Shown here in pieces: positions 3,871 to 18,427 of a stretch of 18,427 nt of DNA. A model generated the notes under the pieces. That model was not told where the DNA came from. It saw nothing but the letters and a program-made list of their open reading frames with translations, and did no database searches. Source of the stretch: Anaerolineae bacterium (GTDB taxonomy: Bacteria > Chloroflexota > Anaerolineae > UBA1429); contig JAFGLK010000377.1 in the NCBI GenBank assembly GCA_016928125.1, forward strand, positions 1 to 18,427, written 5' to 3'. Each line of letters begins with the position of its first letter. The first letter of the stretch is position 1. The translations under genes and the position numbers were made by a program.

Positions 3871-4067
3871 ATCGTCTCCTTTTCCTGTGGCGTAATCAGC
3901 GACATCCCGGTCCAGGCTCATGCCTGGGCGCCATTCGCAAATGTCTCACGAAACCTGTGCACATCCCGTCGGGGCTTGATCCCACCGTATATCGCCCAGG
4001 CTAGGAACCATCCCAAGCCTGATCGCAGCTACGTGATCGGGCTCGATGCGAGGAGGCGACAAGCAGC
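3871..4067. other. Divergent intergenic region between NIF3-GNAT and YdjM-like genes
   Basis: About 200 bp should contain promoters for both flanking genes, but I find no hexamer pair with acceptable spacing. The ribosome binding sites are clear: AAGGAG for the minus gene near 3876-3881, and AGGAGG at 4051-4056 for the plus gene. Confidence 0.4.
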
Positions 4068-4599: not shown

Positions 4600-6084
4600 T
4601 CAGGATGTCGTCAGACGGTCGATCGCCGCAGCAAGCCGCCGGGCCACCATGTCCTGCCCCAGGATCTCCAGACTGCCAAAGAGAGGCGGCGAGACCTCCT
4701 TGCCGGTCGTCGCTGCGCGAATGCAGCCGAAAAAAGGCCGTGTCTTGACGCCGAGCTCATCCTGAAGTCCGCGCAGAGCTTGCTCGATTGTCGCTTCATC
4801 GAACCTCTCCAAGCTGGAGAGGGTGGCCTGCGCCGCGCGCAGCAATTCCAGCGTGCTGGCGCGATCCATCTTGTTCTGGATCAGCAAGTCGGCGTCATAC
4901 TCGAGCCTCGCGGCGAAAAGAAAGTCGGTCAGAGGCAATACGTCGTTCAGGGTCTTGAGGCGCTCTTGCACCAAGGGCACGATCTTGATGACCGTTTCGA
5001 TGTCTACCTCGATGCCCGCTGCGCGATAGATCCCCATGAGCCTGCCCGCGAGATCGCTGGGCCCCAAGCCCCGAATATAGCTGGCGTTCATGTATTCCAG
5101 CTTGTCATAAGCAAAGGCGCTGGGCGCCTTGCTCACTTTGGACAACGCAAAGCAGCGCACCAACTCATCCCGCGTGAAAAACTCGCGCTCGCCATCGTAA
5201 GACCAGCCCACAAGCGCCAGAAAGTTGGTCAGCGCCTCAGGCAGATAGCCAGCCTGCCGAAACTCGTGCACAAACGTCAGCATCTCGCCGCCGCCGGGGA
5301 GCCTCTTCTTGCGCTTGCTCAGCTTGCCCTTGCCCGAGGGGTCGAGAATTGTCGGGAGATGGGCCTGGATGGGCATCGGCCAGCCGAACGCGTCATAGAG
5401 CAGCACATGCTTCGGGACGGAGGAGAGCCACTCCTCGCCGCGCATGATGTGACTGATCTCCATGAGGTGATCATCCACCACGTTGGCCAGATGATAGGTG
5501 GGAAACCCATCTGACTTGAGCAGTACCAGATCATCGAGCTGGTCGTTCTCCACGGTGATATGGCCGCGCAGCACATCGTCAAAGGAGGTGGATCCCTCGA
5601 GCGGAATGGCGAGCCGGATCACGGGCTCGATGCCTTGCGCCTCCAGGTCTGCAATCTGTTGGCGCGTGAGATAGCGGCAATGCCGATCGTAACCGTAGGC
5701 GATGTTAGCCGCGTGTTGTGCCTCTCGCAGCGCGGCCAAGCGCTCGGGGCTACAATAGCAGCGATAGGCCTTACCTTCCGCGACCAGCTTCTCGGCAAAC
5801 TCCTTGTAGAGGTCGAGGCGGTCAGACTGGAAATAGGGGCCATAATCGCCACCAACTTCTGGCCCCTCGTCCCACCACCATCCCAGCCAGCGCAGTCCCT
5901 CCAGATGGTCGGGCAAGGCCTCCGGCTGATAGCGGGCGCGATCCGTATCCTCGATGCGCAGGATGAATCGCCCGCCGTGATGGCGCGCAAAGAGCCAGTT
6001 GAAGAGCGCCGTGCGGGCTCCACCCACGTGAAAATAGCCTGTCGGACTGGGCGCGAATCGCACCCGAACGCGATCTGCCATCAT
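4600..6084 (-). CDS. gltX: Glutamyl-tRNA synthetase
   Basis: This class I aminoacyl-tRNA synthetase charges tRNA-Glu (and possibly tRNA-Gln if non-discriminating) in the cytosol. The 494-residue length is normal. Visible signatures are the RFAPSPTG start with the HIGH-equivalent HVGG (19-22), LRIEDTD (42-48), and KLSKR (254-258). Between KLSKR and the conserved GYLPEAL there are about eight more residues than usual, with a LPGGGE loop. Cys109-x-Cys111 and Cys136 match the spacing of the zinc cluster I recall from the E. coli enzyme, but the fourth ligand position is Tyr138 here. The start has two adjacent ATGs (6084 or 6081) and only a weak GGGAAG Shine-Dalgarno. It is the last gene of the minus-strand block, 65 nt below rodA, and could be read through from it or use its own promoter. 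Confidence 0.95.
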   Translation of the reverse strand: MMADRVRVRFAPSPTGYFHVGGARTALFNWLFARHHGGRFILRIEDTDRARYQPEALPDHLEGLRWLGWWWDEGPEVGGDYGPYFQSDRLDLYKEFAEKLVAEGKAYRCYCSPERLAALREAQHAANIAYGYDRHCRYLTRQQIADLEAQGIEPVIRLAIPLEGSTSFDDVLRGHITVENDQLDDLVLLKSDGFPTYHLANVVDDHLMEISHIMRGEEWLSSVPKHVLLYDAFGWPMPIQAHLPTILDPSGKGKLSKRKKRLPGGGEMLTFVHEFRQAGYLPEALTNFLALVGWSYDGEREFFTRDELVRCFALSKVSKAPSAFAYDKLEYMNASYIRGLGPSDLAGRLMGIYRAAGIEVDIETVIKIVPLVQERLKTLNDVLPLTDFLFAARLEYDADLLIQNKMDRASTLELLRAAQATLSSLERFDEATIEQALRGLQDELGVKTRPFFGCIRAATTGKEVSPPLFGSLEILGQDMVARRLAAAIDRLTTS

Positions 6085-6148
6085 CTAACTTCTTCCCTCT
6101 CGCTTTGAGCGATCTTGTCGGGATGGGTCCTTGGCGCATTCGCCACAC

Positions 6149-6157
6149 ATCATACCA
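6149..6157 (-). promoter_or_regulatory. Candidate extended -10 promoter for gltX, overlapping the rodA stop
   Basis: On the minus strand TGG-TATGAT is an extended -10 (TATGAT complements 6149-6154), embedded in the last codons and TGA of rodA. No good -35 is seen at 16-18 bp. Transcription would start near 6142, about 58 nt before the gltX ATG. It may be coincidental coding sequence. Confidence 0.3.
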
Positions 6158-7271
6158 GAGCTCGCTCCCCGACCTGCTGACGCGCAGCAACGCTCTGGGC
6201 CGTCCCCAGGGCCAGCAATGTGGTGATCAGGGAGCTCCCGCCGTAGCTTACCAGGGGCAATGGCAAGCCGGTGACGGGCATCAGATTCGCATTCATGCCC
6301 AGGTTGATCAGCGTCTGCACGAGAATCATGATGGCTACGCCGCCCGCAACCAAGCGCCCGTAGCTGTCCCGAGCTGACCAGGCGACACGGACCAGCCGCA
6401 GGATGACAAACGCAAACAGCGCGATCAGCAGGAGCGACCCCAAGAAGCCCATCTCCTCGGCCAGTACCGAGAAGATAAAATCCGTGTGCCGAACGCGCAA
6501 AAAGTAGAGTTGGGTCTGGGGGCCTCTCAAGGGCCCCTTGCCCCACCAGCCTCCCGAGCCAATGCTGATGAGCGCTTGATTCACATTGTAGCTCGCGCCT
6601 GAGGGATCCTGATCCGGAAAAAGAAAGGTTACAAAACGCTCGCGCATATAGCCTTCCAGTTGGAACCAGAGTACAGGGGCTAACACGGCGGCGACCAGAG
6701 CCAGAATCGCCAGATGGCGCCAACGCACGCCGGAGAGGAATACCAGGCCCAGCCAAGTAGTCAGGAGGATTAGGGCTGTGCCAAAGTCGGGCTGAAGATA
6801 GATCAGCAGAACGGGCGGCACACTCATCAGCATCGATCTCAGAAGAGGCCAAGGTCTCTCCAAATCCACCTGATCGCTGCTCAACTGGCGCGCCAGCACG
6901 AAAACCATCAAGACCTTGGCGAACTCTGAGGGCTGGGGCGCGAACTGGCGCAGCTCGATCCAACTCTGGGCCCCAAACGCGATCCGCCCAACCAACAACG
7001 TGATGCCTAGGATGAACACGATGAAAAGATAGATCCAGCGCGACAGGGAGAGCAGACGATGGTAGTCAATCGCCGCGGCCGCGAAGTATAGGATGAGACC
7101 GACCACACCGAAAAGTCCCTGCCGGAACACCAGATTGTCCAAGAGACCGCTGCCAGGAGATTCAACGTTGATCTCATAGGCGCTGTAGATCATCGCTCCA
7201 CCGATCAGCATGAGGATGACGGTGGCAGCGAAGAGGGGCCAGTCGAATCGACGCCAAGAGCTAACCACCAT
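6150..7271 (-). CDS. rodA: RodA, SEDS-family peptidoglycan glycosyltransferase of cell elongation
   Basis: RodA polymerises lipid II into glycan strands and works with the class B transpeptidase PBP2, whose gene lies two genes upstream. The 373-residue protein has about ten hydrophobic segments and SEDS family signatures: SWIELRQFAPQPSEFAKV (103-120), LQPDFGTALIL (159-169), the RVRHTDFIFSVLAEEMGF block (259-276) with the expected catalytic Asp264, and the late GLPLPLVSYGGSSL motif. The frame extends upstream to 7343, but that would overlap minD and add a non-hydrophobic Cys-rich stretch. ATG 7271 leaves a 32-nt gap after minD and places the protein start directly before the first membrane helix, though no clear Shine-Dalgarno is present. 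Confidence 0.93.
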   Translation of the reverse strand: MVVSSWRRFDWPLFAATVILMLIGGAMIYSAYEINVESPGSGLLDNLVFRQGLFGVVGLILYFAAAAIDYHRLLSLSRWIYLFIVFILGITLLVGRIAFGAQSWIELRQFAPQPSEFAKVLMVFVLARQLSSDQVDLERPWPLLRSMLMSVPPVLLIYLQPDFGTALILLTTWLGLVFLSGVRWRHLAILALVAAVLAPVLWFQLEGYMRERFVTFLFPDQDPSGASYNVNQALISIGSGGWWGKGPLRGPQTQLYFLRVRHTDFIFSVLAEEMGFLGSLLLIALFAFVILRLVRVAWSARDSYGRLVAGGVAIMILVQTLINLGMNANLMPVTGLPLPLVSYGGSSLITTLLALGTAQSVAARQQVGERALV

Positions 7272-7303
7272 GAAACACTCGCAAACCAAAGTGACGCTGC
7301 ATG

Positions 7304-8107
7304 CTAGCGCTTCCGCCTTCTGCCCAGGCCAATGCGTTGCCAAAAGGTCTTCCGGCCCTGGAGCGCGGCCATGAAAGGCACGTTTTCGCCCAGCACGCGG
7401 CGCGCGATGTTGCTGTAGGCTTTGCCTACGAGTGTGCTATCGTCGTGAGCTGCGGGTATGCCGCGCCCGTTCGCCACCAACACCTCCTCTGCTTCGGGGA
7501 TGATCCCCAAGAGGTCAATGGATAGCATCCTGAGCATCTGCTCTGGGTTCAACATCTGCTGGCGTTGCACCAGATCGGGATGTATTCGATTAATGATGAG
7601 CCCGAGCACACGGCGGCGCTCCGACTCGAGGATGCCGAGCACGCGGTCTACATCCTGGATGGATGGAGCATCCGGTGTCGTGATGAGCACGAATTCGTCG
7701 GCTGGCGCCACCGCATTGCGAAAGCCAGACTCGATGCCAGCGGGTGAGTCGATCAGGACAAAGTCGCTCTCGCCGCGCAGACTCTCGCACACCCGGATCA
7801 TATCGGCTGGGCTCAGTGCGCTCTTGTCTCGACTCTGTGCTGCTGGGAGCAGATAGAGATCCGGCACAAACCGGTCGCGAATGAGCGCCTGGCGCAAGCG
7901 ACAGCGACCCTCAACCAAGTCCACGATATCGTAGATGATGCGATTTTGCAGCCCCATGACCACATCGAGGTTGCGCAAGCCGATGTCTGTATCGATGATG
8001 ACCACACGTTGACCCAACCGCGCCAAGGCCACGCCCAGATTAGCGGTCGTGGTTGTCTTGCCCACTCCGCCTTTGCCTGAGGTCACTGTGATCACCCGCG
8101 TAGGCAT
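7304..8107 (-). CDS. minD: Septum site-determining ATPase MinD
   Basis: MinD is a ParA-type ATPase that dimerises on the membrane with ATP and recruits the FtsZ inhibitor MinC. The 267 residues include the deviant Walker A GKGGVGKTT (11-19, signature Lys12 and catalytic Lys17), DTDIGLRNLD (39-48), and the Walker B-like VLIDSPAGIE. The C-terminal KTFWQRIGLGRRRKR is an amphipathic basic helix, the usual MinD membrane-targeting sequence. GAGGAG lies 9 nt before the ATG and overlaps the minC stop, implying translational coupling. Gene order minC-minD follows the PBP2 gene, like the mreBCD-minCD order of Firmicutes. No minE is found in the window, so the topological partner is unknown. Confidence 0.95.
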   Translation of the reverse strand: MPTRVITVTSGKGGVGKTTTTANLGVALARLGQRVVIIDTDIGLRNLDVVMGLQNRIIYDIVDLVEGRCRLRQALIRDRFVPDLYLLPAAQSRDKSALSPADMIRVCESLRGESDFVLIDSPAGIESGFRNAVAPADEFVLITTPDAPSIQDVDRVLGILESERRRVLGLIINRIHPDLVQRQQMLNPEQMLRMLSIDLLGIIPEAEEVLVANGRGIPAAHDDSTLVGKAYSNIARRVLGENVPFMAALQGRKTFWQRIGLGRRRKR

Positions 8108-8111
8108 GCGG

Positions 8112-9017
8112 CTAAGCTCCTCGTCGCGTGGTATCCCATCTTGCGATCAGGATCTTGGCATCGTCCACATACGCTACCTCAGGATGAATTGGCGCTTCTG
8201 AATCGGAGGCCGTGCCGGACGGATAGCGCAAGTCGGGCACCGTGTCGGCTCGGCCGTGCGGGGCGATCCCATCCTCCTGGCGCGCTATGATCTGGCCAAT
8301 GCGCAACTGCATGGGAGCCATCTCTAGCGCACACACCACAGCCGATTCATCGCCCATCGAGCCGGCATGGGCCATGCCATAGAGTCGTCCCCAGACGACG
8401 ATATCCCCGCCGGCAATCACCGCAGCGCCGGGGTTCACATCGCCAATGATCGCCACATGGCCAGTATGGCGCACAACTTGGCCAGAACGAACCAGGTGGC
8501 GGACGAGAATACCCCTGCTCCCCTGAGGCATGGACCCTGATGTCGCCACAGTCCTGCTCGATACATCAGAAGACCAAGTTTCTGTCTCCTGGGGTGGACT
8601 GGGTTCCACAATCCGAAGGCCCAGCGCCCGAGCCGCGTGTTGTGACTCGAGGTTAGGCGTCACCACCGTGCGGAAGATCATATCATACTGCTCAAGCAGG
8701 TCCCGGAGGCTCTCGAGGTCAGTCTGTCGAAGTGGACGATCTCCAACCTCCAAAGCCACTCGGCCACCCCGAAAAAAGGCCCCCTGATTCGCCAAATGGT
8801 CACTCAACTCGCTCAGCAACTGCGAAAACTCGCCAACGCCAAGCGTGATCGTCAACCCCTCGCGCGTGCCTTTGATGCGCGTGCGTTGCTCCGATCGGGC
8901 ACCCCGATTGGGGCTCGTCTGGAATGTGGCTCGTTCCTCGGCAGGGCCGCTTGTCTCAGGCTCGTGGGAGCTCGATTCGATCAAGGCCCGCCTCCTTCCT
9001 ACACCCGCATCTACCAT
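8112..9017 (-). CDS. minC: Septum site-determining protein MinC
   Basis: MinC blocks FtsZ polymerisation and acts together with MinD, encoded 4 nt downstream. In this 301-residue protein, residues about 52-137 form the N-terminal FtsZ-inhibitory domain. Residues 168-250 form the beta-helical MinD-binding domain with the recognisable RSGQVVRHTGHVAIIGDVNPG (177-197 region), AGGDIVVWGRLYG (202-214) and AHAGSMGDESAVV (216-228). A polar Ser/Thr/Glu linker separates the two. The first 45 residues and the last 45 are low-complexity and probably disordered. The frame extends to 9278, but that part only overlaps the PBP2 gene. ATG 9017, just 4 nt after the PBP2 stop, is the natural start despite a weak ribosome binding site. 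Confidence 0.9.
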   Translation of the reverse strand: MVDAGVGRRRALIESSSHEPETSGPAEERATFQTSPNRGARSEQRTRIKGTREGLTITLGVGEFSQLLSELSDHLANQGAFFRGGRVALEVGDRPLRQTDLESLRDLLEQYDMIFRTVVTPNLESQHAARALGLRIVEPSPPQETETWSSDVSSRTVATSGSMPQGSRGILVRHLVRSGQVVRHTGHVAIIGDVNPGAAVIAGGDIVVWGRLYGMAHAGSMGDESAVVCALEMAPMQLRIGQIIARQEDGIAPHGRADTVPDLRYPSGTASDSEAPIHPEVAYVDDAKILIARWDTTRRGA

Positions 9018-9021
9018 ACGG

Positions 9022-10998
9022 TCACTTGGGGGGCAAAGCGAAATAGTATCGCAAGATCTCTGCTGCCACCGGTACGGCAACCTGGGAGCCTTCGCCCCCA
9101 CCCTCCAGAAACACCACCAGGGCGATCTCGGGCGCCTCGTAGGGGGCAAAGGCCGTGAACCAAGCATGGGTCGGCAGGTTGCCTTGCTCGTCCAAGAGCA
9201 AGTTCCCTTGCTCGTCAAGGCCCGGATACTCGGCCGTGCCGGTCTTGCCAGCCACAGCGAGTTCGGGCATGAAGGCATGCCACGCCGTCCCCATGGTCAC
9301 CGCTTCACGCATGCCCTGGCGCACCAGCGCCAGGTTCGCTTCATCGATCCCCAGCTCCCTGATAGGCTCGGGCACCAGGGCATGGCGCACAGAGCCCTCG
9401 GCGTCCCGAACTTGGTACACAAGCTGAGGGCGATAAAGCGTGCCACCATTCGCGACCGCAGCCGCTGCATTGAGCACCTGCAATGGGGTGGCCAGGATAT
9501 AGCCCTGCCCTATGGCCGCGTTGTAGGTGTCTCCAGTGTACCATATCTCGCCATAGTTGTGGCGCTTCCAGCTGTCGCTGGGCAACAGCCCTGCCGCCTC
9601 GCCCGAAAGCTCGATGCCCGAGGGTTCACCAAAGCCGAACACGCCAGCATACTTGGCCAGGCGCTCGATCCCTAGCCCCTCGAACTCACGAAAGCCCCCA
9701 GTGAGCTGATAGAAGAAGATATCACACGACTGCCGCAGTCCGCCCAGGATATCGAGCGAGCCATGTCCCTGTATACGCCAGCAGTAGAATGGTTGCGCTT
9801 TGGAGAGATCATCTGGAAAATACCGATTGGGCAGCCACAACGTGCCGGCGCATGAAAGGCGCGTGGAGGCATCGATGACGCCCTCCTCGAGCGCAGCAGC
9901 CGCGGGCACAATCTTGAATGTCGAGCCAGGGGGATACTGCCCACTGATGGCGTGGTTCACCAAAGGGCGGTCTCTGTTACCGCTCAGCTCCGCATAGTCG
10001 CTATAGGAAATGCCCCCTGAGAACAGGTTGTTATCATAGCTGGGCAAAGATACCAGAGACAGAATCTCGCCTGTCCGTGGGTCCATCGTCACACAGACAC
10101 CCACAGACGACCCGGCAGCGCGCATCCCTTGGCGTAGAGCGGCCTCTGTAGCCTTCTGTAGCTCGACATCGATGGTCAACACGATGCTCTTGCCCTGCAC
10201 AGCCGGTTCAGAGGCGATAACGGCTACTTCACGCTCAAAGGCATCGACCTCAATATGCTTGCGTCCCTTGACGCCATGCAGCAAAGCCTCCTGGGTAAGC
10301 TCGATGCCTGTGAGCCCAACCTGGTCGCTCGGATCGTAGCCTCGCTCGAGATAGCTTTCCGCATATTCGCTCGGAATGTTGCCCACGTAGCCCAGCAAAT
10401 GTGCCGTGAGGGGACCGTCGATATAATGACGCAAGGGCTCAACCTGAACCAGCACGCCGGGCAGTTCGAGTTGCTCCTCCTCAATGATAAACGCCGCCTG
10501 ACTGTCCACAGCACGGGCGACGCGTACGGGCGCATAGGGGCTTAGCGTCCGCTCTGCCAGGATCGTTTCGATGCTCGTCTCTGTGCGCGCCGTCTGGCGT
10601 CCCGCCACAGGCGCAGAGGCCTCGGGCCGAGACCCAGTATCCGCGGATGTCGCTTCGTCCACGGGCAATGGCGCGGCCCTGTTGATCAGCTCACTCACGC
10701 GCTCGAGGACCTTGCGCCGTTCCTCCCCATCCTCAGGCAGGCTGGCGGGAAGGATGCTGACAGCGAAACTGGGCACATTGCGCACCAGAATACGCCCGTA
10801 GCGATCATATATGATACCCCGCGGAGCGTCAATCGGGACAAGGCGGTAGCGATTGCGATCTGCCAGCTCTGCATATTTCGCAGAAGAGATGATCTGTAGA
10901 TCCCACAGCCTAACGCCGATTATCGTAAAGGCAATAACAGTAAAGATACGGAGCAAAATGAAGCGGACTCGAGATATGGGTCTATCGTTCATTGCCAT
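9022..10998 (-). CDS. mrdA: Penicillin-binding protein 2, class B transpeptidase of elongation
   Basis: PBP2 cross-links peptidoglycan during side-wall growth, paired with RodA. The 658-residue protein has a single N-terminal membrane anchor (13-31), and a pedestal/dimerisation domain beginning with the PRGIIYDRYGRIL motif (59-71). The transpeptidase domain has the three penicillin-binding motifs: S359-T-F-K362, S424-C-D426 and K585-T-G587. A polar Ala/Pro/Thr-rich stretch at about 108-141 interrupts the pedestal domain. Just after KTG there is a direct octapeptide duplication (594-609). The first ATG (10998) overlaps the mreD end by 10 nt; the alternative ATG at 10992 gives a classic ATGA overlap with the mreD stop. 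The two starts differ by two residues. Either way translation is probably coupled to mreD. Confidence 0.95.
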   Translation of the reverse strand: MAMNDRPISRVRFILLRIFTVIAFTIIGVRLWDLQIISSAKYAELADRNRYRLVPIDAPRGIIYDRYGRILVRNVPSFAVSILPASLPEDGEERRKVLERVSELINRAAPLPVDEATSADTGSRPEASAPVAGRQTARTETSIETILAERTLSPYAPVRVARAVDSQAAFIIEEEQLELPGVLVQVEPLRHYIDGPLTAHLLGYVGNIPSEYAESYLERGYDPSDQVGLTGIELTQEALLHGVKGRKHIEVDAFEREVAVIASEPAVQGKSIVLTIDVELQKATEAALRQGMRAAGSSVGVCVTMDPRTGEILSLVSLPSYDNNLFSGGISYSDYAELSGNRDRPLVNHAISGQYPPGSTFKIVPAAAALEEGVIDASTRLSCAGTLWLPNRYFPDDLSKAQPFYCWRIQGHGSLDILGGLRQSCDIFFYQLTGGFREFEGLGIERLAKYAGVFGFGEPSGIELSGEAAGLLPSDSWKRHNYGEIWYTGDTYNAAIGQGYILATPLQVLNAAAAVANGGTLYRPQLVYQVRDAEGSVRHALVPEPIRELGIDEANLALVRQGMREAVTMGTAWHAFMPELAVAGKTGTAEYPGLDEQGNLLLDEQGNLPTHAWFTAFAPYEAPEIALVVFLEGGGEGSQVAVPVAAEILRYYFALPPK

Positions 10999-11492
10999 TC
11001 AGCCGACTCTGGACCCCATATGACGCGCAATCTGCCCAGCAACATATACACCAGCGGCATGAAAAGCAGGTTGAGGAGCGCCTCTGGGAAGACGATGCGT
11101 CCCAGCGCGGGAGCCCAGACCATCGGGCGGCCGGCCATACGCAGCAAGAACATCAGCGTCCCTTCGTAGGCCAATGTCGCCAGCGCGATGACCAGGTAGG
11201 GCAGGAACCACGCCGTGCGAAAGACGTTGCTCTCCCCCAGCCCTGCTACCAAACTGGCAAGCAACAGAGAGAGCGTTGAGAAGCCAAAGGGGGCGCCAGA
11301 TAGCGCATCCAACACCAGCCCACCCACCAGAGCAACAGCTATCCCCTGGCGAACGCCGCAGAAGAGCACCCAGCCAACGGTGAACAAAAGTGCCAGATTC
11401 GGACTCACGCCAAAGATCTGCAGGCGTGACGTGACGGCCGATTGAAGGATAGCCAGCAAAATACTCACAGGAAGCCCCAGATACAAACTCAT
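10989..11492 (-). CDS. mreD: Rod shape-determining membrane protein MreD
   Basis: MreD is the small integral membrane member of the MreBCD elongasome. From the chosen start it has 167 residues with five or six hydrophobic segments and the family pattern SPNLALLFTVGWVLF..G..QGIAVALVGGLVLDALSG in pieces (residues about 30-66), especially the GLVLDALSGAPFG turn. ATG 11492 is selected because GGAG lies 6 nt upstream and the first helix follows directly. In-frame GTG 11510 and ATG 11504 would add four to six residues but lack a Shine-Dalgarno. The gene lies 27 nt after mreC and overlaps the PBP2 start, matching its operon role. Confidence 0.9.
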   Translation of the reverse strand: MSLYLGLPVSILLAILQSAVTSRLQIFGVSPNLALLFTVGWVLFCGVRQGIAVALVGGLVLDALSGAPFGFSTLSLLLASLVAGLGESNVFRTAWFLPYLVIALATLAYEGTLMFLLRMAGRPMVWAPALGRIVFPEALLNLLFMPLVYMLLGRLRVIWGPESAEWQ

Positions 11493-11519
11493 ACTGAGCT
11501 CCATGGGCACGGAAGAACG

Positions 11520-12374
11520 CTACCGCGGGACATTCTGTCCTTGCGCGGCACCGGAATCTGCTTCGGAAGGCACAAAGTTGAGCAACACCATCACGGTCTC
11601 CAATTCCTGTAGGTTCACCGCCGGGACGAGCCGGGCCTCTTGGAATAGGGCTGCATCCCGGTTCTCAACGCTTTCGACCTGGCCAATGACCAGTCGCTTG
11701 GGGAAATTGCCGCCCAGGCCCGAGGACAGCACGATGTCCCCCGGTTCAACCGTCTCGCCTTGGGGGATGTAGCGCATGATGAGCTCTTGGCCGATATATC
11801 CCTGCACGACGCCGCTGGCGCGAGATCGCTGAACCAAGGCACTCACCGAGCTGGATGAATCGGTGATCAACAACACTTGAGCGGAGCTTGCGCTCACCTG
11901 ACTGATGCGTCCGACCAGCCCAGAATCCGTGAGCACGGGCATGCCACGTTCAACGCCATCCGCTGCGCCACGATCGATCGCGAGATGGCGAAGGAGGTTG
12001 TTCGGATCGCGGCCGATCACCTCGGCTGACAACAGACTGTACTCAGGAACAGCGCTTCTGAAGCGCAGTTGCTCGCGCAGTGTTTCGTTCTCTATGGCGG
12101 CCTCCTGCAGCGAGATGATCTCAGCCTTGAGCGAGGCGTTCTCGCGGCGCAAGGCTTCGTTCTCCCTCTGCAATCGACCCAACTGGTGCACATGTCCCAG
12201 CAACTGGATCAGGGGGCGGGCGACTCGGCCCAATGTGTACTGGATGGGAGAGAGGACATGGGAGAAACCATCCCGAATGGGGTTGGGACCCCCCGTCCCC
12301 TCCAAGATCAGCCAGCTCAGGATGAGCGCCAAAACGAGGATGATCACGATGGCCTGCTGGCGTGAGGGGCTCAC
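11520..12374 (-). CDS. mreC: Rod shape-determining protein MreC
   Basis: MreC is a bitopic membrane protein whose extracytoplasmic beta domain scaffolds PBP2/RodA. The 284 residues show a short cytoplasmic tail, one membrane helix (8-25), and a coiled coil (about 62-105, heptad-like QRENEALRRENASLKAEI). A beta-rich domain from about 112 follows with the family motifs AEVIGRDPNNLLRHLAIDRG (117-136) and GMPVLTDSGLVGRI (144-157). The start is GTG (complement of 12372-12374), with only a weak AGGA 10 nt upstream. The C-terminal tail after about 265 is polar and probably disordered. It lies 85 nt below mreB in the same orientation. Confidence 0.93.
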   Translation of the reverse strand: MSPSRQQAIVIILVLALILSWLILEGTGGPNPIRDGFSHVLSPIQYTLGRVARPLIQLLGHVHQLGRLQRENEALRRENASLKAEIISLQEAAIENETLREQLRFRSAVPEYSLLSAEVIGRDPNNLLRHLAIDRGAADGVERGMPVLTDSGLVGRISQVSASSAQVLLITDSSSSVSALVQRSRASGVVQGYIGQELIMRYIPQGETVEPGDIVLSSGLGGNFPKRLVIGQVESVENRDAALFQEARLVPAVNLQELETVMVLLNFVPSEADSGAAQGQNVPR

Positions 12375-12459
12375 TTGTTGAGCGTCCTAAGTGGGGCCAT
12401 AGCGCGTGCCTTCTCGACGGGTTACCTGGGCGGTGCGCATGGACCGTTCCTGCCAGAGC

Positions 12460-13527
12460 TCAGCGCGCGTGCGCCAGGGCGCCACGCTGGGTGCTGGCCA
12501 ACACTTTATAATAGCGGTCTAGATCTTCGACAATACGGCCAGCTCCCCGCACCACGCAGGTGATGGGGTCCTCGGCCCGGTAGACCTGCATACGCGTCTC
12601 GTCTGAGAGCCGCTCAGGCAGGCTCTGCAGGAGCGAGCCCCCGCCGGCCAACACAAGCCCCTGTTCCATAAGGTCGGCGATGAGCTCAGGAGGGGTTTCG
12701 TCCAGCGCAGCTTTGACCGCCTCAACGATGATCGAGACCGGGCCAGATAACGCCTCGCGAATCTCGACGCTGCTGACCTCCACGGCGTCCGGCAGTCCGG
12801 TGATGAGATTGCGACCTCGAATGGTGATGGTCTGTTCCTCGGCCAGCGGATAGGCAGAGCCGATGGCGATCTTGGTTCGTTCTGCCATTCGTTCGCCGAT
12901 GAGGAGATTGTACTTTTGGCGCGCGTAGCGGATGATCTCTTCATCCATCTCGTCGCCAGCCACGCGAATGGAGCGGCTGGCCACAATCCCGCCCAAAGAG
13001 ATCACGGCCACCTCGGTGGTGCCTCCGCCGATATCGACGATCATGCTGCCCACCGACTCGTTGACGGGCAGTCCCGCGCCGATGGCCGCGGCGATCGGTT
13101 CCTCCACGAGATAGGCTTCCCGGGCGCCGGCGCTTATGGTAGCATCGTGCACAGCGCGCTTTTCCACCTCGGTAACCCCGCTGGGAATCCCGATGACCAC
13201 GCGGGGGCTGGGGCTCAGAAACCAGCGCCGCTCGTGCACTCGGTGAATAAAGTAGTGGAGCATCTTCTCGGTGATGTCAAAGTCCGAGATCACGCCGTCG
13301 CGTAGCGGACGTATGGCTACGATGTTGGCCGGCGTGCGCCCGACCATCTCCTTGGCTTCAGCACCGATCGCGAGCGTCTTCTTGGTGAGCTTGTCGATGG
13401 CCACGAAAGACGGCTCGTGGATGACGATGCCCTGTCCGTGAACGGAGACCAGGGTGGTCGCCGTGCCAAGATCGATGCCAATATCTCGAGAGAATAAACC
13501 GAGCAGAGATCTGAGCGGTCTTATCAC
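12460..13527 (-). CDS. mreB: Rod shape-determining actin homologue MreB
   Basis: MreB forms membrane-bound filaments that orient side-wall synthesis. From GTG 13527 it has 355 residues, close to the family norm. The nucleotide-binding signatures are phosphate-1 DIGIDLGTATT (15-25), VIGIPSGVTEVEKRAV (111-126), VEEPIAAAIGAGLPV (141-155), phosphate-2 DIGGGTTEVAV (165-175), and the adenosine motif LVLAGGGSLL. The first 13 residues (MIRPLRSLLGLFS) could form an amphipathic membrane-binding helix. The open frame continues upstream to 13668, but the extension is not MreB-like. GAGGAAGG lies 7 nt before the GTG, which settles the start. It is the first gene of the minus-strand elongation block, with an extended -10 and palindrome about 200 nt upstream. 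Confidence 0.95.
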   Translation of the reverse strand: MIRPLRSLLGLFSRDIGIDLGTATTLVSVHGQGIVIHEPSFVAIDKLTKKTLAIGAEAKEMVGRTPANIVAIRPLRDGVISDFDITEKMLHYFIHRVHERRWFLSPSPRVVIGIPSGVTEVEKRAVHDATISAGAREAYLVEEPIAAAIGAGLPVNESVGSMIVDIGGGTTEVAVISLGGIVASRSIRVAGDEMDEEIIRYARQKYNLLIGERMAERTKIAIGSAYPLAEEQTITIRGRNLITGLPDAVEVSSVEIREALSGPVSIIVEAVKAALDETPPELIADLMEQGLVLAGGGSLLQSLPERLSDETRMQVYRAEDPITCVVRGAGRIVEDLDRYYKVLASTQRGALAHAR

Positions 13528-13680
13528 CAAGGTACCTTCCTCTGCATGCCACCAAGCCGATCTTAGAGCCGGCTGTGTAGGTCTGGGCATGATCATGCCA
13601 TCATGCCGGCAGCGGAGCTTCAAAGTCGGACCTGCCCGGATGGCAACGCGATCCGCGCAACTACCCACAGCGCTCTCGGC

Positions 13681-13730
13681 AATCTTGCGAGATCCGGAGA
13701 TCTCGCGAGATCCCCGGATCTCGCAAGATT
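13681..13730. repeat. Nested perfect palindrome at the mreB operon start (possible operator)
   Basis: AATCTTGCGAGATCCGG (13681-13697) is perfectly inverted at 13714-13730. The 16-nt spacer itself contains the perfect 14-bp palindrome GATCTCGCGAGATC (13699-13712). The result is four copies of GCGAGATC in alternating orientation within 50 bp. It overlaps the mreB -10 by 3 bp and covers the predicted transcription start. That layout fits an operator for a dimeric or tetrameric repressor. In RNA it would form a strong 5' hairpin instead. There is no U-run on either side, so a terminator is unlikely. Confidence 0.75.
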
Positions 13731-13736
13731 ATACCA
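13728..13736 (-). promoter_or_regulatory. Extended -10 promoter of the mreB-rodA operon
   Basis: On the minus strand TGG-TATAAT is a perfect extended -10 (TATAAT complements 13728-13733, TGG complements 13734-13736). The -35 region is weak: TTTTGT at 17 bp or TTGTGT at 15 bp. The start point would be near 13721, inside the palindrome, giving a leader of about 195 nt before GTG 13527. Confidence 0.55.
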
Positions 13737-13850
13737 CACTTCATATGAACACAAAAGGTTGGGAGGGCCACGCGCAGGGCCACAGTTTGCACGGGCTACA
13801 CGCGGTTCGAATTGTGCTTTTTGTCACAAGTATTTTTGGGCTAAAATGAG

Positions 13851-13856
13851 TATAAT
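13851..13856 (+). promoter_or_regulatory. Possible distal promoter -10 (TATAAT) for the transport operon
   Basis: A perfect TATAAT lies in a locally AT-rich segment. The nearest -35-like hexamer, TTGTCA at 13821-13826, is 24 bp away, too far for a normal promoter. If used, the leader would be about 330 nt. Confidence 0.25.
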
Positions 13857-13981
13857 AGCGCTCACGTGCAGACCGGGACGAGCTCGCCGGGTTGGGCGCG
13901 TGTCAACCCAAATGATAATCCGACCGAAGCAAGACGGGGCGAGCGCGCCTTGGATTGGGGTTTTCCGCGCACTCTGAGTTG

Positions 13982-13990
13982 TGGTAGAAT
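13982..13990 (+). promoter_or_regulatory. Candidate extended -10 promoter for the transport operon
   Basis: TGG-TAGAAT is an extended -10, preceded by GT as in the mreB promoter (TGTGG-TAxAAT in both). TTTTCC at 13961-13966 could be a poor -35 at 18 bp. The start near 13997 would give a leader of about 195 nt containing the inverted repeats around 14035-14095. Confidence 0.35.
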
Positions 13991-14033
13991 GAGCCAATAT
14001 GGCGTGTTCGCCGATCGGATTGCTGAGGCAAGA

Positions 14034-14095
14034 AAGGAGACCTAGCGCCCGAATAAGGCCATGACGCTGTGATGGCGCCAACTCCCACAGTCGAG
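14034..14095 (+). other. Leader segment with nested short inverted repeats
   Basis: Within the probable 5' leader, GGAG pairs with a later CTCC, GCGCC with GGCGC, and GCCAT with ATGGC, all nested around a central loop. They are separated by small bulges. The arrangement could be a structured RNA, but it matches no riboswitch consensus that I can recall, and short GC-rich pairings are easily found by chance. Confidence 0.25.
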
Positions 14096-14193
14096 CTGCA
14101 AGGGGGTAGGGGGATGGCGCGCCCCGCACGTCGCGCAAGCGACCATTCTAGCATCAAGACACTCAAAATGAACAGAAGAAGGAGAAGCAGATC

Positions 14194-16125
14194 ATGAAGC
14201 CCAGATTGGGTATGATCATCGCCGCCACATTGGCGCTGCTTCTGGTGGTCAGCGGGTGTGTTACGCCCACCCCGACGCCAGTGCCAGCCCCAGCCGCGGC
14301 TCCCGCACAAGCGACCGCAGCGCCTGCGCCGACTCAAGCGCCGGCCGGCAAGATCGTCATCGCCACGGATGCGGCCTTCCCGCCCATGGAGTTCGTGGAC
14401 GAGAACAAGAACATCGTTGGCTTTGACATCGACATGATGAATGCCATCGCGGATGTGATGGGCCTGGAGATCGAGTACAAGAACACCGCTTGGGACGGCA
14501 TCTTTGCCGGGCTCGAGAGCGGCGACTATGACGCCATTCTGTCAGCGGTGACCATCAGGGATGACCGCAAGGAAAAGTACGACTTTTCCGACCCGTACAT
14601 CAATGCCGGGCAGGCAGTGGTCGTCCGGATGGACGAGGCAGCGATCGCGAGTCACGAGGATCTCAGCGGCAAGACCGTCGGGGCCCAGATCGGCACGACG
14701 GGCGCCTTTGCAGTCCAGGAGATCTCGGGGGCTACGCTCAAGGAATATGACACGATCGACCTGGCCTTCATGGACCTCATAGGTGGCAACATCGACGCCG
14801 TGGTGGTGGATACGCCCATTGCGGCCGACTATGCCTTGGCCTCCGATCAGTTCAAAGGCAAGCTCAAGATCGTAGGTGAGGCTTTCACCGATGAGCAGTA
14901 TGGTCTGTTGGTCGTCAAGGGCCAGATGGGCGATCTCCTTCAGGCCTTCAACGAGGGCCTCAAGAGGATTCAGGCCGACGGCACCTATGACGAGATCTAT
15001 GCCAAGTGGATCTCGGGTGGGGCAATGGCCTCACCGATCGCTGCGGGTGGAGCAGGACCGGCGGTGCCGCCTGCGCCGGGCTTTCCGGTGAAGCTGGCGA
15101 TCGTGGTGCCCCTCAGCGGCGACGTGAAGACCTTTGGCGAGTCGACCCGCGACGGCGCCATGATGGCCTTCGACGAGGCGGAGGCGGCTGGCTGGGACAT
15201 CGAGGTGGTGCTGGCTGACAGCAAGTGCGATGCCCAGGAGGCGGCCAACGCGGCGAACAAGGTGATCTTTGAGGACGAGGTCAAGTACATCGTGGGAGAG
15301 GTCTGCTCGAGCGCTTCGATTCCGATCTCAGAGATTGCGGAAGCGAACCAGGTGTTGCAGATCTCGCCGACGTCAACCAACCCAGTGGTGACGGTGAATG
15401 AGGATGGGAGCACGAAGGAATACGTCTTCCGGGCGTGCTTCCTGGATCCGTTCCAAGGGGAAGTGGTGGCTGCGCTGGCGCAGGAGCTAGGGGCCAGCAA
15501 AGCGGCGGTGCTGTACGACGTGGGCAACGACTATGTGAAGGGCTTGGCCGAGTACTTCAAGGCCTCGTTCGAGAGCATGGGCGGGACGGTGCCGGTGTAC
15601 GAGGCGTACACCAAGGATGACACGGACTTTTCGGCGGTGCTGGGCAAGGTAGCCGCGGCGGACGTAGACGTGTTGTTCCTGCCGGACTACTATGCCAAGA
15701 ACAACCTGATCGCGGCGCAGGTGAAGGAGAAGGGCATCGACGCCACGCTACTGGGTGGCGACGGATGGGATTCTCCGGAGCTGCAGTTCGATCTGTTCGA
15801 GGGTGGGTATCACTCGAACCACTACTCGCCCGCCGATCCACGGCCGTTGGTGCAGAACTTTGTGAGCGCCTACGAGGCCAAGTATGGCATGGTGCCCGAT
15901 GCGTTGGCCACGCTGGCCTATGACGCGGCTGGCATCTTGCTGCAGTCCATCGCTGAGGCAGGGGTAGATGACCCCACGTTGGTGAAGGACGTGATGGCGG
16001 CCATCCAGTACGAGGGTGTGTCTGGCGACATCACGTATGATGAGAAGCACAACCCGGTCAAGAAGGCGGCCATCGTCAAGATCGAGGGTGGCAAGCCCAC
16101 CTTCTACAAGTTCGTCGCGCCTTAG
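14194..16125 (+). CDS. Lipoprotein with fused family-3 and family-6 (LivJ-like) solute-binding domains
   Basis: The 643-residue extracytoplasmic binding lipoprotein begins with a signal peptide and a lipobox VSGC, lipidated Cys22. A Thr/Pro/Ala spacer (23-51) follows. Residues 53-275 are an SBP_bac_3 domain (polar amino acid type): IATDAAFPPMEF (56-67), GFDIDMM, the TIRDDRKEKYDFSDPY motif with ligand Arg125 (120-135), and DTPIAADYAL with Asp206. An Ala/Gly/Pro linker (275-298) leads to residues 299-640, a Peripla_BP_6 domain. This aligns with LivJ: the Cys345...Cys371 pair, VGEVCSSAS and ISPTSTNP (390-397). AAGGAG lies 9 nt before the ATG. It heads an operon with LivH/LivM-like permeases, so the family-6 half is the natural donor. 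No family-3 permease is visible. The ligands are probably amino acids but are unproven. Confidence 0.92.
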   Translation: MKPRLGMIIAATLALLLVVSGCVTPTPTPVPAPAAAPAQATAAPAPTQAPAGKIVIATDAAFPPMEFVDENKNIVGFDIDMMNAIADVMGLEIEYKNTAWDGIFAGLESGDYDAILSAVTIRDDRKEKYDFSDPYINAGQAVVVRMDEAAIASHEDLSGKTVGAQIGTTGAFAVQEISGATLKEYDTIDLAFMDLIGGNIDAVVVDTPIAADYALASDQFKGKLKIVGEAFTDEQYGLLVVKGQMGDLLQAFNEGLKRIQADGTYDEIYAKWISGGAMASPIAAGGAGPAVPPAPGFPVKLAIVVPLSGDVKTFGESTRDGAMMAFDEAEAAGWDIEVVLADSKCDAQEAANAANKVIFEDEVKYIVGEVCSSASIPISEIAEANQVLQISPTSTNPVVTVNEDGSTKEYVFRACFLDPFQGEVVAALAQELGASKAAVLYDVGNDYVKGLAEYFKASFESMGGTVPVYEAYTKDDTDFSAVLGKVAAADVDVLFLPDYYAKNNLIAAQVKEKGIDATLLGGDGWDSPELQFDLFEGGYHSNHYSPADPRPLVQNFVSAYEAKYGMVPDALATLAYDAAGILLQSIAEAGVDDPTLVKDVMAAIQYEGVSGDITYDEKHNPVKKAAIVKIEGGKPTFYKFVAP

Positions 16126-16133
16126 GCTACTCT

Positions 16134-16159
16134 GGGGGAGGGCGTTAGCGTCCTCCCCC
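16134..16159 (+). other. Strong hairpin just after the binding-protein gene
   Basis: Eleven pairs (GGGGGAGGGCG with CGTCCTCCCCC, one G-U) enclose a TTAG loop, starting 9 nt after the stop codon. No U-run follows. In binding-protein transport operons such hairpins often protect the upstream mRNA or cause partial termination, giving more binding protein than permease. That role is inferred here. Confidence 0.6.
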
Positions 16160-16232
16160 CTAGACTCAAGTCAAGGTGAGATCGGTCCGCTGCCCACAGA
16201 AACGCGTGGATCCCGCCTTGCCTTGAGTCTAG
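16160..16232. repeat. Long imperfect inverted repeat between binding-protein and permease genes
   Basis: The 24-nt arms 16160-16183 and 16209-16232 are inverted copies identical at 21 positions; the outer 11 bp (CTAGACTCAAG) are perfect. The loop is 25 nt. The left arm starts at the base after the preceding hairpin. It may be a second mRNA processing or attenuation structure, or the remnant of a small palindromic element. No U-run follows. Confidence 0.6.
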
Positions 16233-16310
16233 ACTCTGCTCATAGGTAGGCGCCCGTTGGAACCTGAACCGCGGGCAGATCTCTTTCGACTGACCGGTGC
16301 AGGAGGCTGG

Positions 16311-17312
16311 ATGAGAAACTCCCTGGCCAAGCTCCCGCTGCGTATCATTGCATGGCTTGTGTATGCCGCGCTTGGTGTGGGCATCGTATGGGGTGTAATC
16401 TCTCTCGTGCGTCTGAACGGGCCCGTCTATTTTGGACAGGCCGTGATCGATGGCCTGAAGCTGGGCTTTGTCTATGCCTTGATCGCCCTGGGCTACACCC
16501 TGGTATATGGCATTGTCCGTTTGATCAATTTTGCTCATGGCGATGTCTTCATGGTGGGTGCCTTTGCCAGCTTTTATGCGATCACAGAGTATGACTGGGG
16601 CTTCATCCCGGCTATCGTCTTTTCCATGGTTGTGTGTATGGTGTTGAATGTCGTCATCGAGCGAGTGGCCTACAAGCCGCTGCGCGAGGCCCCACGTATC
16701 GCGGCGCTGATCACGGCCATCGGCGTTTCCTTTTTCCTCGAATACTTTACCGCGCTCAAGTTCGTGTTCAGCGCGGATTTCATCACCTACAAGCGCCCTT
16801 TCGAGGTGGTCGTCTGGAACCTGGGGGGCCTGCTGATCACGAACATCACCGTCATTATCACCGTCATCACGATCGTTCTCTTGTTGGCTCTGCAATACAT
16901 CATCCACCAAACCAAAATGGGCAAAGCGATGCGCGCCACAGCCGCCGACAAGCCCGCCTCGCGTTTGATGGGTATCAATGTCAATGGCATCATCTCGCTC
17001 ACCTTTGCCCTGGGCGCGGCCCTGGCTGGCGCTGGCGGCATGTTGTATGCGATCGCTTTTCCACAGATCTGGACCTTTATGGGCGTGATGCCCGGCCTCA
17101 AGGCCTTCGTGGCGGCTGTGCTGGGCGGCATCGGCAACGTCCTCGGCGCCTTTGTGGGCTCTCTGCTGATGGGCACGATCGACGTTCTGGTCGTGAGCTT
17201 TGTCCCGATGGGCTCACGCCTGCGTGACCTCTTTGCTTTCCTGGTCTTGATCCTCGTCTTTCTCATCAAACCCACGGGCATCTTTGGCGAAGCCGAGATC
17301 GAGAAGGTCTAG
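16311..17312 (+). CDS. livH: Branched-chain amino acid ABC transporter permease, LivH family
   Basis: This is an inner-membrane permease subunit of a Leu/Ile/Val-type ABC importer. The 333 residues contain the LivH hallmark GLKLGFVYALIALGYTLVYG (48-67), then LINFAHGDVFMVGAF (71-85), the cytoplasmic TKMGKAMRATAADKPASRLMGI loop (about 200-221) that contacts the ATPase, and the KPTGIFGE end. ATG 16311 has AGGAGG 4 nt upstream. A TTG at 16257 in the same frame has no Shine-Dalgarno and adds a polar stretch. Unlike standard LivH, which starts almost at the GLKLG helix, this one has about 45 extra N-terminal residues with one more hydrophobic segment (11-34). It is followed by livM 11 nt downstream. 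Confidence 0.92.
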   Translation: MRNSLAKLPLRIIAWLVYAALGVGIVWGVISLVRLNGPVYFGQAVIDGLKLGFVYALIALGYTLVYGIVRLINFAHGDVFMVGAFASFYAITEYDWGFIPAIVFSMVVCMVLNVVIERVAYKPLREAPRIAALITAIGVSFFLEYFTALKFVFSADFITYKRPFEVVVWNLGGLLITNITVIITVITIVLLLALQYIIHQTKMGKAMRATAADKPASRLMGINVNGIISLTFALGAALAGAGGMLYAIAFPQIWTFMGVMPGLKAFVAAVLGGIGNVLGAFVGSLLMGTIDVLVVSFVPMGSRLRDLFAFLVLILVFLIKPTGIFGEAEIEKV

Positions 17313-17323
17313 GAGGCGTCCAC

Positions 17324-18427
17324 ATGAAGCGAAAGCTCGCCCTGCCGTCCTGGATACCCACCCTGCTGGTCGCCTTGGCGATCTACTTCGCAGTGAGCTA
17401 TGCGAGTAGTCATGAGTTGATCACCCAGTATTGGTATCAAGTGATCCAGATCGCCGCTTTCACCGCCATTTCGGCTCTCGGTCTGAACTTGATCTATGGG
17501 TTCAACGGCCAGTTCTCGCTCGGGCATATCGGTTTCTATGCCATTGGCGCGTATGGCTCGGCCCTGATCACCAAGGATTTCCTGACCAAATGGAGCGGTG
17601 GCCAAGCCCTGTCGCTCTCCTGGATCATCGCGGGGCAGCTGGGCATTCTGGTCGCTCTGCTTGCGGTCAGGGCGCTGCGCATAGGCTCCCTACGTGAACG
17701 CCTCAAGAGCGCGTTGCAGGGCATCCTCCGGCCCTATGAGGCCGGGGTGATCACGACACTGGTCGCGTTGGTCCTTGCAGCCATCGTGGTCGCTATCGGG
17801 GCTGGGGCCACCTGGCTTCTGCAAAAGGTGGTCTTGTTGGTCGTCGAAAACACGGTGCTTCGATTGCCTCAATCGGTGGCCCAGGGCGCTATCTTTGTGA
17901 TCGCCCTCATCAACGGGGGCACCATGGCCGCCCTCGTTGCCTATCTGGTGGGTCTGCCGCTGCTGCGCCTCGGCTCAGACTATTTCGGCATCGCCACGCT
18001 AGGATTCGCGATCATGGTGTACACAGCGCTGCAGAACTCGGACCTGGTGGTCCCGATCATGAAAGGCGCGCGCGGCATGGTGGCCATTCCCCGTTGGAGC
18101 AATTGGGCCTGGGTCTTTGGCGCCCTGGTGGTCTGTGTCATCATCATGCGCAACTTGATCTACTCCAGCCATGGGCGCGCCATCATGTCGGTGCGGGAGG
18201 ATGAAATCGCGGCGCGCACGATGGGCATCGATGTGGCCCAGCTCAAGGCGCTCGCTTTTGCTTTCGGCGGCTTTTTTGCCGGCGTGGCCGGCGGGCTGTA
18301 TGCTCATCTCTTTGGCTTTCTCCATCCCAGCAGCTTTAACTTTGTCAGAGGCTTTGATCCAATGATCATCATTGTGTTTGGTGGTCTAGGGAGCATGACT
18401 GGCACGATCGTAGCCTCGGGTGTGTTC
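17324..18427 (+). CDS. livM: Branched-chain amino acid ABC transporter permease, LivM family (3' end outside window)
   Basis: ATG 17324 follows AGGAGG (17311-17316), which overlaps the livH stop, so the two are coupled. The frame stays open for 368 codons to the window edge. LivM signatures are ALGLNLIYGFNGQFSLGHIG in parts (51-70), GAYGSALIT (75-83), GLPLLRLGSDYFGIATLGF (210-228), the ATPase-contact loop SVREDEIAARTMGID (289-303) and GGFFAGVAGGLYAH (315-328). Between the first conserved block and the LRLGSDYF block there are roughly 125 residues, where about 40-50 are usual. The excess (about 105-190) carries two additional hydrophobic segments and a charged stretch (RERLKSALQG). The missing C-terminus should be short. 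livG/livF ATPase genes would be expected next. Confidence 0.92.
   Translation, partial: MKRKLALPSWIPTLLVALAIYFAVSYASSHELITQYWYQVIQIAAFTAISALGLNLIYGFNGQFSLGHIGFYAIGAYGSALITKDFLTKWSGGQALSLSWIIAGQLGILVALLAVRALRIGSLRERLKSALQGILRPYEAGVITTLVALVLAAIVVAIGAGATWLLQKVVLLVVENTVLRLPQSVAQGAIFVIALINGGTMAALVAYLVGLPLLRLGSDYFGIATLGFAIMVYTALQNSDLVVPIMKGARGMVAIPRWSNWAWVFGALVVCVIIMRNLIYSSHGRAIMSVREDEIAARTMGIDVAQLKALAFAFGGFFAGVAGGLYAHLFGFLHPSSFNFVRGFDPMIIIVFGGLGSMTGTIVASGVF

Follow-up and report, generated by a model that had tools for sequence, protein, structure and literature searches.

A single ORF from a member of the Anaerolineae encodes a lipoprotein in which two unrelated solute-binding folds, an N-terminal SBP_bac_3 domain (hereafter SBP3) and a C-terminal LivJ-like domain, share one lipid anchor, and we consider it probable, judging from the operons of related genomes, that this two-headed receptor serves two complete ABC importers of one operon, a PAAT system via SBP3 and LivHMGF via LivJ. 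The ORF lies in the window, by which we mean the whole stretch of DNA analysed (18,427 nucleotides), whose relevant features are these:

14194..16125, forward strand: SBP3-LivJ fusion lipoprotein of 643 aa (open frame; PF00497 and PF13458 above cut-off; full-length relatives)
14194..14259, forward strand: signal peptide up to the lipobox VSGC, Cys22 being the lipid anchor (pattern scan; Cys22 in 34/34 fusions)
14260..14346, forward strand: Ala/Pro-rich tether after the lipid anchor, residues 23-51 (pLDDT <50 at 21-48)
14347..15018, forward strand: SBP_bac_3 domain of the His/Arg/Gln-binding type, residues 52-275 (Pfam; solved sequence relatives; Foldseek)
15019..15084, forward strand: flexible linker, residues 276-297 (pLDDT <50 at 276-288; 48-58% identity)
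15085..16122, forward strand: LivJ-like Peripla_BP_6 domain without a signal peptide of its own, residues 298-643 (Pfam; best solved relatives 3td9 and 4gnr)
16257..17312, forward strand: livH-like permease, BPD_transp_2 (profile matches; the ATG at 16311 is probably the true start, judged from the translation plus one relative)
17324..18427, forward strand: livM-like permease, cut by the window end (profile matches)

The frame is unbroken over 643 codons, and a pattern scan located one lipobox in the protein (VSGC, Cys22) and none in the linker, as the original prediction, made from the DNA alone, had read it. Both domain families that it named were recovered by Pfam far above cut-off: SBP_bac_3 (PF00497) spans residues 54-273 (E 5.5e-42; 143.1 bits against a gathering score of 26.4) and Peripla_BP_6 (PF13458) spans residues 298-633 (E 6.3e-51; 174.5 bits against 31.7), with additional matches to ANF_receptor and Lig_chan-Glu_bd. 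The chain falls below the NCBIfam whole-protein cut-offs for the LivJ/LivK type (NF011933; 158 of 477 bits), GlnH (NF007029; 169.5 of 303) and the LAO type (TIGR01096; 189.4 of 256.35); its C-terminal half is of the HAAT type, the domain scoring above its gathering threshold and livH and livM adjoining. The 643-aa protein contains no permease domain, the permeases being separate genes. An Rfam scan of the window found no family at gathering score, and a promoter and terminator scan of 13600-16500 found nothing above shuffled sequence.

The two-domain order is recurrent. A database search returned 3379 matches, the best 120 of which were listed and then split by domain into 48 LivJ-LivJ proteins, 35 SBP3-LivJ fusions (including the window's own, P0001), 28 with LivJ only, 7 SBP3-LivJ-LivJ fusions and 2 with three LivJ stretches. 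One protein counted among the 35, P0090 (613 aa), bears kinase Pfam labels that look like an unrelated 5' end; it was left out of the alignment of the remaining 34 (A1), whose other members are 68-84% identical to the window's protein. Relative to four relatives, identity is 70-89% in the domains, 48-58% in the linker and 31-54% over residues 1-51, and dN/dS is approximately 0.08-0.24 for SBP3 and 0.09-0.15 for LivJ, values that are rough because synonymous sites are far diverged. SBP3 is also joined to LivJ on seven genome contigs (L001-L006 and L008, of which L005, L006 and L008 end within LivJ), and the link to the liv operon recurs with it. An assembly join or frameshift artefact, which the original prediction had raised, is ruled out, since 34 other listed proteins and seven contigs share the order. 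Among the 15 genomes of the family to which the genome of L001 belongs, the fusion occurs in seven (G001, G004, G005, G006, G011, G140, G227), unfused neighbouring genes in three (G002, G003, G010) and a dissociated arrangement in one (G009); G237 is cut by a contig start within LivJ, and G158, G198 and G217 gave no match at 1e-140 and were absent from the 79 matches at 1e-80. Same-family and same-order searches of these 15 genomes produced no further fused operon, and in a phylum-wide draw, where 8 of 400 genomes matched at 1e-100, the fusion was present in G001 and G011 only, both already known.

The number of LivJ domains in the true gene bears directly on its length. The two LivJ copies of L003 share 99.4% DNA identity over 1043 bp, and in three of the 7 SBP3-LivJ-LivJ proteins among the best 120 matches listed the copies are 98.6-100% identical. 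Contigs break within LivJ in five genomes (G010, G011, G140, G227, G237), with contig ends that overlap by exactly 141 nt in G010 and 127 nt in G011, as at assembly-graph branches. Given such near-identical copies and breaks, a second LivJ may have been collapsed in the window, the gene being in truth SBP3-LivJ-LivJ and 643 aa too short. We take this reading seriously while thinking it unlikely: the window reads straight through, and a single LivJ is found in 35 of the 120 listed proteins, several of them on very long contigs (P0047, P0081, P0084). It is in any case compatible with service to two importers.

Unfused states are found close by. In L007, L010 and L016, SBP3 and LivJ are separate, adjoining lipoprotein genes with one lipobox each; G009 carries livJHMGF on one contig (L009) and SBP3 on another (L013), there followed by an ORF that matches the PAAT permease N-terminal extension and is cut by the contig end. 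Three further loci (L173, L174, L175) encode two importers in series, livJHMGF-SBP3-permease-ATPase; these are parallels and not ancestors, because their SBP3 sits elsewhere in the SBP3-domain tree (68 rows, root not inferred). Fused, twice-fused and unfused-neighbour LivJ types fall within one 38-row group of that tree (96/92). The same group contains six SBP3-SBP5 fusions, three SBP3 genes beside SBP5, L019 as a plain PAAT protein, and L024, the orphan; further SBP3-SBP5 fusions lie in separate groups. Each of the labels SBP3-LivJ and SBP3-LivJ-LivJ requires four or more changes on starred branches, so that a single fusion event is not supported and LivJ copies seem to have been both gained and lost. 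Since close relatives keep the two genes as unfused neighbours, the fusion is not obligatory, which lends some weight to a neutral joining of two adjoining lipoprotein genes with no gain beyond co-translation. This origin, likewise compatible with two importers, we consider rather doubtful in view of the fusion's presence in 7 of the 15 family genomes and of the mixed SBP5 fusions in separate groups of the SBP3 tree.

The evidence that carries our preferred reading of one receptor for two importers comes from operons that can be followed beyond the point at which the window ends. We scanned genomes with two peptide patterns, kept the best 80 loci and annotated their ORFs against references from these loci, mostly named first by Pfam and later by NCBIfam. 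Plain SBP3-PAAT permease-PAAT ATPase operons account for 54 of the 80 (many from Spirochaetota and Thermodesulfobacteriota, some from Chloroflexota); the others comprise 7 with SBP3 fused to LivJ, 4 with SBP3 fused to SBP5, 3 with SBP3 followed by LivJ, and 12 other or cut loci. In all four operons of the window's type that are readable past livF the order is livH-livM-livG-livF-PAAT permease-PAAT ATPase, and livF is separated from the PAAT permease gene by 16-61 nt: L003 (an SBP3-LivJ-LivJ fusion), L011 (from the same genome as the fused L008), and the unfused L010 and L018 (the latter from the genome of L016), so that fused operons are read past livF in DNA twice only (L003, L011). The best NCBIfam matches of the PAAT permease and ATPase are GlnP and GlnQ, at scores below the equivalog cut-offs. 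The window stops at 18427 within livM, ahead of the place where PAAT genes would lie, which made them invisible to the original prediction and changes the question of a partner for the SBP3 half: the claim that only LivH/LivM-like permeases follow is correct as far as the window extends and fails in relatives. By sequence comparison with these operons, livG, livF, glnP-like and glnQ-like genes are predicted beyond 18427 in the window's organism. Elsewhere, an orphan SBP3 lies approximately 9.6 kb behind livF in the genome of L024, L128 and L191, and no PAAT gene could be recognised over the 16.7 kb that follow it in L191; none was found either between OppC and the contig end, 2.4 kb further on, in an SBP3-SBP5-OppB-OppC locus (L029/L192).

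A census extended this comparison to other liv clusters. Of 396 genomes drawn across the class, 79 gave a match at 1e-80, and 77 regions (L123-L199) were taken from among these matches, L198 and L199 standing outside the count; short copies of other regions (L081-L122) and genomes repeated under other numbers (L012, L024, L026, L128, L197) were left out. Of 59 livJ-to-livF clusters, 12 with less than 2.5 kb downstream were dropped and 47 counted, a limit under which PAAT genes placed further off, with other genes in between, would go unnoticed. SBP3 and PAAT genes occurred together in 8, neither in 35, PAAT alone in 2 and SBP3 alone in 2 (Fisher p 5.9e-6 on raw counts from related genomes, whose rows are not independent); when 4 kb downstream was required the figures were 8, 29, 2 and 1. 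All four discordant rows are edge effects of contigs or regions. The PAAT-only rows, L011 and L018, come from contigs that start within LivJ and have their SBP3 on L008 and L016 respectively; of the SBP3-only rows, L144 ends within the SBP3 protein and L151 is cut at the end of the region read, its extension (L198) encoding OppB, OppC, a PAAT-like permease (157 bits) and an ATPase. Among 37 liv clusters with no visible PAAT gene, 35 also lacked SBP3 as far as the search reached, and the remaining two are edge-cut.

A second, indirect sign of PAAT genes beside fusions was obtained by counting how often the length of the longest contig of a fused binding protein was exactly that of one of the 120 listed proteins related to the L003 permease. 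On contigs of at least 12 kb, identity was found for 11/21 fusions, 0/22 LivJ-LivJ tandems and 3/8 single LivJ proteins; over all contig sizes the counts were 11/44, 1/49 and 4/26, the matches on contigs below 12 kb being the LivJ-LivJ fragment P0088 and the single LivJ P0116. The 44 fusions include the partial or odd P0009, P0089, P0090 and P0093 and leave out P0001, and the window's nearest kin by identity (P0010, P0011, P0013, P0014) were not among the longest-contig matches.

These distributions weaken the original suggestion that the family-3 half, lacking a permease of its own, widens or tunes LivHMGF by docking on LivHM or by passing ligand to the LivJ head. Such a role would accord with the presence of SBP3 and LivJ on one chain in one operon and with LivHM as the only permeases visible in the window, but PAAT permease and ATPase genes occur in 4/4 readable operons, the two SBP3-bearing clusters without them are both edge-cut and, to our knowledge, BPD_transp_2 permeases do not take SBP3 proteins; we regard it as improbable. 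Marginally less probable still is that the SBP3 head is mainly a sensor regulating the importer or a signalling partner: Venus-flytrap binding domains are reported to act as the sensor domains of BvgS-type kinases, and a PAS-HisKA-HATPase kinase gene lies convergent after the PAAT ATPase in L003, with a response-regulator gene likewise placed in L011, but these two-component genes are on the opposite strand outside the operon, in the unfused L010 and L018 that position is occupied by genes for an FGGY kinase and an FAD oxidoreductase, and SBP3 occurs with a transport permease in readable operons. The flank scan for sensor genes covered ten ORFs beside L003, L010, L011 and L018, of which two are fused loci, too few to judge.

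Residues at the presumed binding sites are conserved in both heads. In the SBP3 half, Asp59, Arg125, Thr168, Thr169 and Asp206 are invariant in the 34/34 aligned fusions, the window among them, which bears out the complete family-3 domain with its ligand arginine; we take these to be ligand contacts from the roles of their counterparts in GlnBP and LAO, where those of Arg125, Thr168, Thr169 and Asp206 hold the alpha-carboxylate and alpha-amino groups. In sequence alignment with AncQR, Arg125, Thr169 and Asp206 are the same, whereas Thr168 is replaced by Ser and Asp59 by Glu. In the LivJ half, Ser372, Thr395, Tyr447, Tyr499 and Asp523 are equally invariant (34/34, the window included) and all five are the same in 3td9; their roles are presumably those known from LIVBP. 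Both heads are expected to take alpha-amino acids. Completeness of the LivJ-like domain was sustained. Its proposed disulfide-type cysteine pair holds less strictly: Cys345 is conserved in 32/34 fusions and Cys371 in 33/34, and a further cysteine, Cys415, occurs in 34/34.

AlphaFold2 (46-row alignment A2) returned the two-domain architecture that had been anticipated, with two confident globular domains (mean pLDDT 87.3, pTM 0.59), low-confidence stretches (pLDDT <50) at residues 21-48 and 276-288, the latter in the linker, and no membrane helices inserted in the SBP3 domain, whose SBP_bac_3 match is of ordinary length. The pTM and the two low-confidence stretches leave the relative placement of the heads undefined in the model, which contains no defined head-head contact. 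The closest solved sequence relatives of the SBP3 half are SBD1-SBD2 of GlnPQ (6h30) and AncQR; Foldseek matched it to the Gln/Arg-binding proteins 4zv1 and 8eyz and the LivJ half to 3td9 and 4gnr, and no SBP3 and LivJ fold pair was evident, judged by description, among the 50 matches listed.

Under the proposed two-importer arrangement, the SBP3 head would deliver a ligand, predicted to be an amino acid of polar or cationic character (for instance Gln or Arg), to a PAAT importer made of an extended GlnP-like permease and a GlnQ-like ATPase, while the LivJ head would deliver a branched-chain or other neutral amino acid to LivHMGF. Each head may dock on its own permease, and the single anchor would fix the two receptors at a 1:1 ratio and keep the two pumps close together. 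The fusion could have arisen from adjoining genes by loss of a stop codon and of the lipobox of LivJ, although the tree gives no direction. The PAAT permease of this operon type (P0167, 488 aa) has approximately 250 residues ahead of the PAAT core, against approximately 60 in the permease of L014. AlphaFold2 predicts that this extension holds a small beta domain (residues 54-102) besides a membrane helix and other helices (pLDDT approximately 80-97 over residues 31-230); the core is poorly predicted, and for that reason we base no claim of docking on the model. It is a guess that this beta domain lies on the outer side and serves as the docking site of the receptor.

Other poly-headed receptors occur in related Anaerolineae, including SBP3-SBP5, LivJ-SBP5 and triple fusions. 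SBP3 fused to or adjoining SBP_bac_5, followed by OppB-OppC-PAAT permease-PAAT ATPase, is found in seven loci (L014, L017, L123, L126, L127, L134, L190), with livJHMGF ahead of three of these operons (L126, L134, L190), and L123 encodes LivJ-SBP3-SBP5 as a single chain of 1132 aa. A circularly permuted SBP5 is present in each of the 40 SBP3-SBP5 proteins listed, in two LivJ-SBP5 proteins and in the L123 triple fusion (relative to the SBP5 of L020, reference residues approximately 180-573 come first and approximately 57-180 last), in a list biased towards this form because the query used to compile it was itself the permuted L123 protein; unpermuted SBP5 is present in L036, L124, one of the two in L151, and P0158. 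It is possible, and we advance it tentatively, that these receptors (SBP3-LivJ, SBP3-LivJ-LivJ, SBP3-SBP5, LivJ-SBP5, LivJ-SBP3-SBP5) physically bridge at least two different ABC importers into one uptake supercomplex on one lipid anchor, with the extra domain of the PAAT permease as the docking piece.

In the usual description of ABC importers, each permease family is paired with a single binding-protein family. Importers shared by several binding proteins are known, as are tandem binding domains of one family. GlnPQ of Gram-positive bacteria (SBD1-SBD2) resembles the fusion in having two binding domains in series on a flexible linker, but both of its domains are of the SBP_bac_3 type and are fused to one permease, whereas here two families (PF00497 and PF13458) are combined in a lipoprotein separate from the permease, and relatives encode two permease systems. 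The tandem domains of GlnPQ are reported to work independently of each other, and lengthening their linker to slow transport (PMC8025302); both findings fit heads that act independently and a tether that has a use. The C-terminal domain and its livH and livM neighbours, with livG and livF in relatives, are as in LivJ/LivK with LivHMGF (HAAT), from which the fusion differs in its extra N-terminal SBP3 head, the absence of a lipobox in the LivJ half, NCBIfam scores below cut-off, and PAAT genes at the operon end in relatives. The SBP3 head, and the PAAT permease and ATPase of relatives, are shared with PAAT systems of the GlnHPQ/ArtJ type, where, unlike here, SBP3 is neither fused to nor adjoining livJ, liv genes do not separate it from the PAAT permease, and the permease lacks the extension of approximately 250 residues. 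Ionotropic glutamate receptors also combine LIVBP-like and SBP3-like domains, in the order opposite to that of the fusion, which has no channel segment and is a bacterial lipoprotein. Among the matches listed from open-access full-text literature (subscription journals lay outside the scope), we found no account of a mixed-family fused binding protein, nor of one serving two importers, and no description of a circularly permuted SBP5, and we file the mixed-family fusion as a new variation on multi-domain binding proteins.

For the annotation of metagenome-assembled genomes, a protein named solely as a branched-chain amino-acid binding protein may also imply a polar-amino-acid importer. The fusion allows a test of whether one shared receptor can run, dose or physically couple two unrelated ABC importers, and its relatives provide a natural range of arrangements, from separate operons through adjoining lipoprotein genes to fusions.

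Two domain orders were found among proteins that carry three binding-protein families, SBP3 (SBP_bac_3), LivJ (Peripla_BP_6 type) and SBP5 (SBP_bac_5), in one chain:

L123, 4618-8016: triple fusion LivJ-SBP3-SBP5 (P0121, 1132 aa)
P0158 (database protein): triple fusion SBP5-LivJ-SBP3 (1148 aa)

The Opp/Dpp-type SBP5 domain also occurs circularly permuted, with reference residues ~180-573 placed first and ~57-180 last. In a list drawn with a permuted protein as query, this form was present in 40 SBP3-SBP5 proteins, two LivJ-SBP5 proteins and one triple fusion (P0122, P0126 and P0148, among others); it is encoded at loci L014 (9651-12041), L134, L126 and L127, and as separate genes at L012, L017 and L029. 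At L126, L134 and L190 one cluster encodes three importers, in the order livJHMGF, SBP3 and SBP5, OppB, OppC, PAAT (glutamine-type) permease and PAAT ATPase; a metallo-beta-lactamase-fold gene lies 3' of livF in L134 and L190.

Two-component genes are convergent to both fused operons readable past livF (L003, L011), and the unfused operons L010 and L018 have carbohydrate kinase and oxidoreductase genes immediately 3' of the PAAT ATPase:

L003, 19518-21290, minus strand: histidine kinase gene
L011, 7056-8141, minus strand: response-regulator gene
L010, 18200-21189, and L018, 6753-9930: FGGY-family carbohydrate kinase and FAD-dependent oxidoreductase genes
L003, 17146-18705: extended PAAT permease (P0167 and relatives)

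In this last permease and its relatives, about 250 residues precede the PAAT core; additional helices and one small beta domain are predicted within this N-terminal extension. The orphan SBP3 at L024 (9923-10687; also within L191) belongs to the same SBP3 tree group as the fusions and, with no PAAT permease recognised nearby in L024/L191, is an exception to the pattern of SBP3 with PAAT.

The window itself encodes further genes, minC-minD sitting between pbp2 and rodA in its mreB-to-gltX run:

304-2313, plus strand: CAP domain then PD40 propeller repeats, one protein
2500-3921, minus strand: NIF3/DUF34 protein fused with a GNAT acetyltransferase domain
4600-13668, minus strand: mreB-mreC-mreD-pbp2-minC-minD-rodA-gltX

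Near-identical LivJ copies stand in tandem in L003 (9911-13048), and contigs end within LivJ, where their ends overlap by 127 and 141 nt (L008/L011 and L016/L018, each pair from one genome); together these suggest LivJ copy-number change or collapsed repeats.
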